From: Methylotenera sp.
Lineage (GTDB): Bacteria; Pseudomonadota; Gammaproteobacteria; Burkholderiales; Methylophilaceae
Assembly: GCA_025359405.1 (NCBI GenBank)
Contig: JANYGD010000161.1
Location: 1 to 32,691, forward strand
Direction of reading: 5' to 3'
DNA: 32,691 nucleotides
Numbering within the stretch: position 1 is the stretch's first letter; the number at the start of each line of letters is the position of its first letter. The notes under the pieces were generated by a model. It was given only the letters and a program-made list of their open reading frames with translations. It was not told where the DNA came from and did no database searches. The translations under genes and the position numbers were made by a program. Shown here piece after piece: positions 28,539-32,691 of this stretch.

Positions 28539-29933
28539 ATGCAAATTTCCGACAAAATGACTAGTACCGAGATGCGAGCAACTGTGAGTTTGGCTTCTAT
28601 CTATGGCTTGCGCATGCTGGGCATGTTTTTAATCTTGCCCATTTTTGCCATTTATGCCGAAAAATTAGAAGGTGGTAGCAACCATACCCTGATCGGCTTG
28701 GCACTTGGTGCGTATGGCCTGATGCAAGTGTTGTTGCAATTGCCTTTTGGCATGGCATCAGATAAATACGGTCGCAAAAAAGTGATTTATGTCGGCCTCA
28801 TTTTATTTGCAATCGGTAGTGTGGTTGCTGCCATGTCGCACGACATTTATATGGTGATTATTGGTCGTGCCATTCAAGGCGCGGGCGCAATTTCTGCCGT
28901 GGTAACCGCGCTGGTGGCGGATTCTACAAGAGAAGAGCATCGCACCAAAGCCATGGCCATGATAGGCGCGACCATTGGTTTGACGTTTGCGGTTTCACTG
29001 GTGGCGGGGCCGCTACTTAACCAATTAATTGGCGTGCCAGGCATTTTTTGGATGACGGCGGTACTTTCTATTTTGGCGCTAGGCGTGGTGAAATACCTTG
29101 TGCCAGACCCTGTTCACAGCCAGTTTCACTCAGACGCGCAAACCGCGCCTAGTAAAATAAAAGATGTGCTGCGCGATAAGCAACTCTTGCGCTTAAACTT
29201 TGGTACTTTTTGTTTGCACGGCGCGCAAATGGCCATGTTTATCGTGGTGCCATTTGCCATAAAAGAAACCAGCGGCATGAACGAAAACCAGCATTGGCAA
29301 GTGTATTTTCCAGTGTTAATCGCATCATTCGCGTTAATGATTCCCGCCATTATTTATGCAGAAAAACGTGCCAAATTGAAACCAGTATTTATCGCGGCAG
29401 TGGCCTTAATGCTGGCAGCGCAAATTGCTTTCGCGCTAAACATTCATGTATTTTGGGGCATTGTGGCTTCACTTTTTGTGTACTTTGTGGCGTTTAATAT
29501 TTTAGAGGCCTCATTGCCTTCGCTCATTTCCAAAATGGCACCTGCCGCCTCAAAGGGCACCGCCATGGGTGTGCATAACACAGCGCAATCGTTCGGCATG
29601 TTTTTAGGCGCAATTATGGGCGGATATTTGTCGCACAAACTGGGCTATTCGGCGGTGTTTGTGTTTTGCGCGGTACTAATGGGCGTATGGTTATTGCTGG
29701 CATTTGGCATGAAAACACCCCCTAGCGTGAAGACAAAGATGTATCATATGGATGGTTTAGACGAGCTAAAAGCCAAAGCGCTGGCAGATAAAATTGGCCA
29801 AATAGCGGGTGTGCAAGAGGTGGTGGCGATTGCAGCTGAGGGTACGATAATAGTAAAAATTAACAATCAGCAAGGCAAAGAGGCGTTTAATTTGGTTGAG
29901 CAAGGTATATTAAAACTGATAGGGAGCAAATAA
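28539..29933 (+). CDS. MFS transporter with C-terminal ferredoxin-like (YAM-type) domain, YajR-like
   Basis: 12-TM MFS with [10 protein letters not shown] motif A; soluble C-terminal segment '[37 protein letters not shown]'. Confidence 0.88.
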
Positions 29934-30436
29934 TGGCATCGGTAAATAAAGTAATTTTAGTGGGTAATTTGGGGCGAGACCCAGAAGTGCGCTACATGCC
30001 CAACGGTGAAGCAGTATGCAACTTTAGTATTGCCACAACGGAAAACTGGAAAGATAAATCGGGCGTAAAACAAGAAAAAACCGAGTGGCACAATATTGTG
30101 ATGTATCGCAAATTGGCTGAAATAGCGGGCGAATATTTAAAAAAAGGCCGTCCGGTGTATGTGGAAGGCCGCTTGCAAACACGCAAATGGGAGAAGGATG
30201 GCGTAACGCGCTATACCACCGAAATTATTGCCGATAACATGCAAATGCTTGGTAGCAAAGATGGCGGTAGTAGCAATGCAAGTTATGACGGCGGTAGCAT
30301 GGATCAAGGCTCGGCGCCGGATGATATGAATCAAGCGCCCGCTAGACAATCTGCCCAAGCTGCACCGCAACAGGCCCCTGCAAAATCGGGCGGAGGTGGC
30401 AATTTTGACGACTTTGAAGACGATATTCCGTTTTAG
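29933..30436 (+). CDS. ssb: Single-stranded DNA-binding protein
   Basis: [37 protein letters not shown]; acidic tip DFEDDIPF. Confidence 0.98.
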
Positions 30437-30472
30437 CCTGTACCTGCGATGTAATTGTAAAGTATTTTCTTT

Positions 30473-30499
30473 AAGCCCCTGTTTGTAGGGGCTTTTTTT
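30473..30499 (+). terminator. Rho-independent terminator of ssb
   Basis: AAGCCCCT-gtttgt-AGGGGCTT followed by T-rich run. Confidence 0.9.
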
Positions 30500-30819
30500 A
30501 TGTTTATCGAATAAATAAATGTAAAGAATTTTTGACAGAAAAGTAGGTTATTTGACACCTTGTGTTTCTGTAAAGAATATCGTGTTTTTTATATCAAAAG
30601 TACTCAATTAGTCAGTCTTTTGAAAATTCATTATCCCTTTGTGACTAGTTCATAAATTAAAATTCTGTACACCATTCTGACCATTCCAGTGACTAAATAT
30701 AACAGTCTATTTCATGTGTTTTAATTTATTAACAGTTGCGTTGAATTAAATTATGATTTTCTAAAGTTGTGGTAATGAAAAAAAGTTGTTTCGATAATTA
30801 TTAAAAAGATTAGGTTTAT

Positions 30820-32076
30820 ATGTTTTTTAATGTATTCATGAAAAGTTTTGTGATGGCTGAGGGTGAGAGGTATTGCCTGCTTGTAGAGAAAATTACAGGG
30901 TTGCCACTCTATTTTCCTAATCTTTTTGTTACAACCCAAGTACGCAATCGGTCATTATCTTCCTCAACGATGAAGTCAGCTCTGAGTGGAATTGCTGTGT
31001 TACTAAATTTTATGTTTGAGCGTGACGAAGATATTGAAGATCGATTTAAACAAAAATTTTTTTTTGAAATAAATGAGTTAGATGCGATTAAAGATTTTTG
31101 CCAAATAAAGTTTAGTAATAGAGTAATTAAAACAGATTCAGCTAGCGCATTTACGTTAGCTGAATTGCGGGAATTTAATGAAAAAGTGAGTTCACAAACT
31201 GAGTATGTTCGGCTGACCGTCATTTCATATTATGTGAAATGGTTGGCTGAGTTGCTGACAGGTGAAGCAAGGGACAAAAATGTTGCACTCAGAATTAGCA
31301 AGATGGCGAAAGGATTGTTAGAAAGACGTCCTGTGAAAAAGAACAGAAATATTGGGTTGGTTGAAAAAGGATTGGATGAACAACAGCTTGTAATTCTCTT
31401 TGAGTTGTTTAGGCCAGAATCAGAATTTAATCCATTTTCTAATAAATCCGTAAGAGTTCGCAATCGGCTAATGTTTTTGCTTTTATATCATCTCGGCATA
31501 AGAGGAGGTGAGCTGCTAAATATTAGAATTAAGGATATTGATTTCAATCAGAACCAACTTCTAATTGTCAGGCGTGCAGATGAGAAAGACGACCCCAGAA
31601 AAGAGCAGCCACTTGCGAAAACATTAGATCGCCGCATTCCTCTAAAAGAAACATTAGTCAAAGAGATTCATAACTATATTCTCAATTTTAGAAGATTAGT
31701 TGTTGGACCTAGACAGCCTGACTATCTTTTTGTGACACATAAATCAGGTCCAACAAAAGGGTTGCCTATTACTGTTTCTAGTTACAGAAAAGTTATGGGA
31801 ATTGTTCGAATGGCATTTCCTCAATTGTATAACCTTACAGGACATCGATTACGCCATGCTTGGAATGAGAAGTTTTCGGAGCTTATGGATTCCATGAGCA
31901 ATCCACCAATCGAAGAAATACAAGAAGCAGTAAGATCGAATTTAATGGGGTGGAAGTCTGGCTCTGGCACAGCTACTATTTACAATCAACGCTTTATTAA
32001 AAGAAAAGGGCATGAAGCCGCACTGATGCTACAAAAAGGTATGGTTCGTTTTCCAAAGGATCTTACGAATGAATAA
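30820..32076 (+). CDS. Tyrosine-type site-specific recombinase/integrase
   Basis: 418 aa; catalytic signatures LLYHLGIRGGELLNIRIKDIDF, TGHRLRHAW (HxxR), GSGTATIYNQRF (Tyr). Confidence 0.92.
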   Translation: MFFNVFMKSFVMAEGERYCLLVEKITGLPLYFPNLFVTTQVRNRSLSSSTMKSALSGIAVLLNFMFERDEDIEDRFKQKFFFEINELDAIKDFCQIKFSNRVIKTDSASAFTLAELREFNEKVSSQTEYVRLTVISYYVKWLAELLTGEARDKNVALRISKMAKGLLERRPVKKNRNIGLVEKGLDEQQLVILFELFRPESEFNPFSNKSVRVRNRLMFLLLYHLGIRGGELLNIRIKDIDFNQNQLLIVRRADEKDDPRKEQPLAKTLDRRIPLKETLVKEIHNYILNFRRLVVGPRQPDYLFVTHKSGPTKGLPITVSSYRKVMGIVRMAFPQLYNLTGHRLRHAWNEKFSELMDSMSNPPIEEIQEAVRSNLMGWKSGSGTATIYNQRFIKRKGHEAALMLQKGMVRFPKDLTNE

Positions 32077-32553
32077 CGCTAAGAATCTTAAAATTTTTTC
32101 TTCAAAAAAATCACATAAATCCAAGTCGGGGTATACCTTCATTGAAGGCAACACTCACTGGCAATTGGATAAAAATACCAATGTTGCGGTTGGTAAAGTT
32201 TTAGACCTACTTAATAATGATGCTGGTGCAGGATTTGTAGCAACTTTAATTTTTTATGCCAATAACTATTCTGCAAAGTATACGGAAAATATAAATGAAA
32301 GATTTTTTTACATGTTGCGAACTACTGGAGCGTCTATAGTTAACGCAAGTGTATTAATTAACTATCGATCATCTCTATCCTCAGAAACTGAGTGGTATTT
32401 GGGAGGAATTAAAGCATTTTTAAATAAATGGTATGAGCTAGGATATTCTGGAGTTTCTGAAGCAGCAATTCAATTGCTTAATAGTTGGAAATTGAAAGGA
32501 AATATAAAAGGTGATGTTGTAAAACGTCTTGATTCAGCTCAAGGCCCCCTGAG
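32069..32553 (+). pseudogene. Second, probably recombinase-related ORF truncated by an IS (N-terminal part only)
   Basis: ATG overlaps the integrase stop by 8 nt (ATGAATAA); native frame ends at …KRLDSAQGPL(S), then reads into the IS terminus. Confidence 0.7.
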
Positions 32554-32691
32554 TGTTGACGCGCGTTTAAAACTGACCACCTGTGCGCGTTGAATTTTGA
32601 CCAGGCGTTTATTAGGTGTAGATTACTACACCGCTGTGGATAAGTCGACCAAACTGACTAAGTCTTAAGCTCCTTTTTTAATACTTGATTA
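32554..32691. mobile_element. Terminus of an IS21-family-like insertion sequence (partial, runs off the window)
   Basis: TGTTGAC… end plus two spaced repeats GCGCGTTTAAAACTGACCA (32561-32579) and GCGCGTTGAATTTTGACCA (32585-32603), typical of multiple terminal repeats in IS21-type elements. Confidence 0.7.

Follow-up and report, generated by a model that had tools for sequence, protein, structure and literature searches.

The 5' part of a GInt island, truncated within ginB, at the 3' end of ssb in a Methylotenera-like betaproteobacterium

The locus behind ssb

The window, by which we mean the whole stretch of 32,691 nucleotides analysed here, ends in an AT-rich segment behind ssb that carries one complete recombinase gene and the beginning of a second. 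GC content is 34.5% over this segment and 46.9% upstream of it, in keeping with the first-pass annotation, which had described the region as visibly richer in AT than the flanking core genes. The following features were identified.

29933..30436, plus strand: ssb, the target gene, with a product ending ...FEDDIPF* (open reading frame and translation; 86-95% identical ssb in 14 genus relatives)
30428..30434, plus strand: putative attL crossover core CCGTTTT, spanning the Pro and Phe codons at the SSB tip and the base after them, the first of the stop codon (placed from homologous attL cores)
30442..30461, plus strand: GInt left-end motif ACCTGCGATGTAATTGTAAA, 7 nt past the core (fits the motif regex; ACC at 30442, TGTAAA to 30461)
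30473..30494, plus strand: intrinsic-terminator-like hairpin followed by a T run, element-borne, behind ssb (sequence search)
30557..30574, plus strand: left-end motif repeated (ACCTTGTGTTTCTGTAAA); 38 of 60 left ends likewise have a second one
30820..32076, plus strand: ginA (ORF1), complete tyrosine recombinase of 418 aa (Pfam PF00589, Phage_integrase, E 1.2e-14)
32069..32553, plus strand: ginB (ORF2), reduced to its 5' third, with about 161 residues out of about 515 (NF041502, E 4.5e-41; 8-nt overlap with ginA)
32554..32691, no strand assigned: repeated, insertion-sequence-like end that truncates ginB, with the contig end inside it (same sequence on other contig ends)

A complete tyrosine recombinase with RGGEL, HRLRH and YNQRF motifs, overlapping a second reading frame by 8 nt, had been reported in the first-pass annotation, and both statements hold. 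Besides the Phage_integrase match, residues of the catalytic type are in place at R228 (RGGEL), H342 and R345 (HRLRH), W378 and Y388 (YNQRF), and ORF2 starts at 32069, inside ORF1, which ends at 32076, the 8 shared nucleotides being ATGAATAA. The recombinase-like character proposed for the ORF2 N-terminus is confirmed by its match to NCBIfam NF041502 ("integrase_1", site-specific integrase; 141 bits, model positions 1-142 of 484) and by 45-54% identity to the GinB proteins of relatives, an alignment that runs to residue 162 and then ends.

ORF2 is, however, an incomplete gene, which had escaped that annotation: it is cut at 32553/32554 by the end of a repeated DNA. The repeat, starting TGTTGACGCGCG, recurs at the ends of three contigs of the same genome (C137 and C193 at 100%, C82 at 78%), and the final 12 or so residues of ORF2 derive from it. 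Given the repeat at 32554 and the end of the GinB alignment at residue 162, ORF2 is interrupted by an insertion-sequence-like repeat, within which the contig comes to its end. An IS21-type end was suspected from the TTAAAACTGACC and TTGAATTTTGACC stretches, but the genome's IstB matches sit on other contigs, and a similar stretch on an Acinetobacter plasmid is without an annotated transposase. Unannotated stretches about 78% similar to the repeat are found on many Acinetobacter plasmids.

The contig thus stops after 161 codons of ginB; complete ginABCD occurs in relatives. Searches of the genome's own assembly of 202 contigs found neither ginC nor the native right-flank genes fmdB and DUF502, and the only match to the rest of NF041502 in the genome, at 18 bits, was to a different integrase. 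Since ginC, fmdB and DUF502 are all missing from the 202 contigs, the absence of ginC is not proof of its loss; and with the contig breaking off in the repeat and its native right flank unassembled, no attR or cargo is demonstrable here. The element would have continued into ginC, ginD and cargo. With ginB interrupted by an insertion-sequence-like repeat, it should be unable to move, and the module in the window is probably inactive.

Attachment core and element ends

The SSB tip DDIPF is intact in the window and the left-end motif begins at the stop codon, so the target product is left as it was by a site-specific insertion. We defined the crossover by comparing the empty site of MG1655 with the occupied sites of AP026530, a 655-kb E. 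coli replicon with a chromosomal uvrA-ssb-soxS segment, and of the IncF plasmids pSD_88 and pETN48. The attB of MG1655, together with attL and attR of the occupied sites, gives the core CCGTTCT. One element right end, ...ATCAGGTTATGTGAA, joins this core; beyond it lies GATTTGTC in the chromosomal case and AACGAAAG in the plasmid case, and the plasmid flank begins to match gin-free plasmids exactly at the core. In general form the core is CCNTTYT: it spans the Pro and Phe codons at the SSB tip and the base that opens the stop codon. Among 64 ssb-linked left ends it was seen with each of the four codons for Pro and each of the two for Phe.

Beyond the core, left ends carry ACC at or near 7 nt and TGTAAA 8-18 nt further on. 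A regex for this motif fits 57 of the 64 left ends against 34 of 12,800 random positions (a background of 0.27%); as it was written after many left ends had been viewed, the 57/64 describes the family and is no blind test. A perfect hairpin and T run lie at the same place as the one in the window in 40 of 60 homologous left ends; within the region itself two terminator-like sites were found against 1.5 expected by chance.

The right ends of four elements read GGT (or TGGT), 8 nt, core, so that circularisation would place inverted motifs on either side of the core, an arrangement that a recombinase binding site would be expected to show. An attR regex run over the scanned loci returned four candidates, of which the one in L083, in a GC-rich context, is likely a chance match. 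In L063 and L101 the Pro wobble base differs between the attL core and the attR core, a difference that would fit core exchange between hosts. In the same two loci (at 9785 in L063 and 10589 in L101) the right end of one GInt adjoins the left-end motif of another, which suggests repeated insertion.

Distribution of relatives

A scan of 84,980 species genomes yielded 80 ginA loci. An ssb with a DDIPF-type end precedes ginA in 53 of them; the others are mostly distant partial matches or contigs without the upstream side, with a minority at other targets. To this minority belong L064, L078, L099 and L121, among which the relative in Pseudomonas rhodesiae (L099) sits at the 3' end of a TraU-like gene and that in Rugamonas (L078) inside an SRAP-like gene, both genes being named from reading their translations. 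Relatives at targets other than ssb point to target switching. Complete ginABCD was found downstream in most of 24 loci examined, and the cargo of relatives is variable and frequently anti-phage, which agrees with the earlier expectation of an island with such a load.

A tree was built from 68 GinA proteins, of which 55 are labelled ssb, 11 other and 2 unknown. None of its large branches lacks ssb-linked rows, and target labels change 8 times as compared with 12.1 in shuffles. The window groups with a Gallionella MAG, to whose GinA it is 67% identical; identity to GinA of the E. coli and Citrobacter elements is about 50%. The homologues at this level of identity in E. coli, Citrobacter, Salmonella and Klebsiella have, behind ssb, a third recombinase-like gene of about 670-677 aa with a weak integrase match and, in most, a fourth, small gene (about 139 aa).

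The ssb locus of close relatives, which had been proposed as a check, bears out a variable occupant: ginA of the window's family is present in 3 of 15 genus genomes, the window's included, and the others have none or just a distant recombinase. Where native genes come directly after ssb in gin-free relatives, they are fmdB, DUF502 and aspS (names from reading translations).

Assignment to the GInt family and alternative readings

We consider it very probable that the stretch behind ssb is the 5' part of a GInt, a ginABCD island of the Tn6571 family, represented by ginA and a truncated ginB and integrated at the 3' end of the chromosomal ssb of a Methylotenera-like betaproteobacterium. The assignment is based on gene organisation, the ssb target, an E. 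coli element at a published hotspot and NF041502. GInts were described as carrying a ginABCD operon in which all four genes are required for excision and integration, and ssb 3' ends were already reported as a preferred target of distantly related members (Bardaji et al. 2017, PMC5385486). With these islands the window shares a first gene for a complete tyrosine recombinase, an overlapping second gene of GinB type that matches NF041502 (recognised here on its N-terminal third), insertion at the ssb end with an attL that keeps SSB unchanged, AT-richness and variable presence, while likeness in ginC and ginD is provided by the element's close relatives. It differs in that ginB is truncated by a repeat, that no ginC was found in the assembly and the contig shows no ginD, cargo or attR, and that its ginA is just 67% identical to that of its nearest relative in the scan, the Gallionella MAG.

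In E. coli, GInts with defence systems occupy hotspot 39 (Hochhauser 2023, PMC10121019), which corresponds to the yjcB-ssb interval (2024, PMC11728103). The hotspot 39 element resembles that of the window in GinA (about 50% identity) and the GinB N-terminus (48%), and has the same ssb end and the same left-end motif spacing; unlike the window element it is intact, in the copy read it bears Avs4 together with an AbiGi-type gene, and it is also found behind plasmid ssb.

The first-pass annotation had recognised that a genomic island with several recombinases probably begins behind ssb, which is borne out in the form of a GInt, but had suggested kinship with the gamma-mobile-trio (GMT), in which GmtY, GmtZ and GmtX head an island with cargo. 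GMT islands carry defence and toxin cargo, and GMT is likewise a multi-gene recombinase module at the head of islands, with GmtY sharing the general catalytic region of tyrosine recombinases. This shared region accounts for a GmtY score of 16.2 bits, where the curated cut-off is 340, so that a GmtY identity of ORF1 is refuted by the very model search that had been proposed; the second gene, though truncated, reaches 141 bits with NF041502, its sole NCBIfam match, and no Gmt model recognises it. Relatives, moreover, have three recombinase-like genes and a small one, with no Gmt match for the third or the fourth gene. With partner genes so different, we give a GMT module practically no chance. 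Nor is there any real prospect that ORF1 is a lone housekeeping recombinase of the XerC/D type, or a prophage integrase, lying beside ssb by chance: the XerC and XerD models do match, but at 39.2 bits against a cut-off of 335 and 34.6 against 330, the ssb position recurs in several proteobacterial and other classes and throughout the large branches of the GinA tree, and a single-protein scan of viral contigs found no relative. Recurrence at ssb and the model scores together refute this reading.

A nearer comparison is offered by strand-biased circularizing integrative elements (SEs) and Tn554-like transposons, in which a copy-out mechanism leaves the donor site occupied. Like GInts these are multi-recombinase, site-specific elements that exchange a short core; SEs have a similar four-gene layout and a similar core exchange of 6-7 bp, the wobble differences between attL and attR cores in L063 and L101 would suit them, and the mechanism may be common to both groups (PMC10214605). 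Gene order or number nevertheless appears to differ. The SE order is intA-tfp-intB-srap, with a non-catalytic Tfp second and IntB third, whereas here the second gene matches the NF041502 integrase and the weakest integrase match of relatives sits in the third gene. SE and GInt proteins also cluster apart and have no detectable sequence similarity in the published comparison (PMC10214605). We regard an SE or Tn554-like element as very unlikely, and the GInt assignment is retained below.

Solo left ends and plasmid ssb

The pattern of an ssb end followed by the left-end motif was found in 29 of 187 Methylophilaceae genomes, the reversed control giving 0. In just 11 of the 29 does ginA or a piece of it follow. 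The other 18 are solo left ends with no ginA behind them, a count that is relative to the GinA set used, as some may hold a more distant recombinase. Some solo left ends lead directly into fmdB, and in others 2-12 kb of different genes separate the left end from the native fmdB.

Plasmid ssb genes are occupied as well: GInts follow them on IncF plasmids from both E. coli and Salmonella, on a Klebsiella oxytoca IncC plasmid, on a plasmid of Citrobacter and on a conjugative plasmid of P. aeruginosa. On three ginA-bearing plasmids that were examined, ginA is not at ssb. E. coli places number 376 on chromosomes and 30 on plasmids, nearly all of them at least 99% identical to one query. One GInt with Avs4 and an AbiGi-type gene (L040, L137 and L139) occupies both the chromosomal ssb, on the 655-kb replicon, and the ssb of IncF plasmids; such a distribution is consistent with plasmid ssb having served as a travel route for GInts.

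Proposed mechanism and significance

We propose that recombination takes place within a core of about 7 bp, CCNTTYT, whose sequence specifies the invariant Pro-Phe-stop at the C-terminal end of SSB, its tip, and that the SSB protein would remain unchanged because the core itself encodes this tip. The remaining bases of the ssb stop codon would come from the element, as, probably, would a new terminator. Integration and excision would be the joint work of GinA, GinB, GinC and GinD, acting through ACCT-type motifs that stand inverted on either side of the core once the element is circular. At the locus in the window, insertion by core exchange would have come first, and disabling by the repeat in ginB later.

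It was already published that GInts insert at ssb and that the ssb hotspot of E. coli holds defence cargo. New here are the core CCNTTYT, the spacing of the left-end motif, the presence of one Avs4 GInt at both types of ssb, and the solo left ends in Methylophilaceae. The GInt in the window is ordinary in kind and probably dead, and it is the core, the left-end motif, plasmid occupancy and the solo left ends that lend it some interest.

Two matters were left open in the papers on GInts: the signal that makes distantly related GInts choose ssb, and how they travel between cells without mobility genes. A core made of SSB-tip codons, with ACC motifs at near-fixed spacing, may answer the former, and plasmid ssb genes acting as carriers the latter. 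In a broader reading, which we advance tentatively and rate at slightly below even chances, GInts of this clade would read the DNA of the SSB tip (Pro-Phe-stop, CCNTTYT with any wobble base), making any ssb a ready site. Since conjugative plasmids carry their own ssb, insertion behind it would be the missing transfer route of otherwise non-mobilizable islands that are often loaded with anti-phage genes, and repeated visits would leave solo left ends as a fossil record. Both the codon core and the plasmid carriers are directly testable in E. coli.
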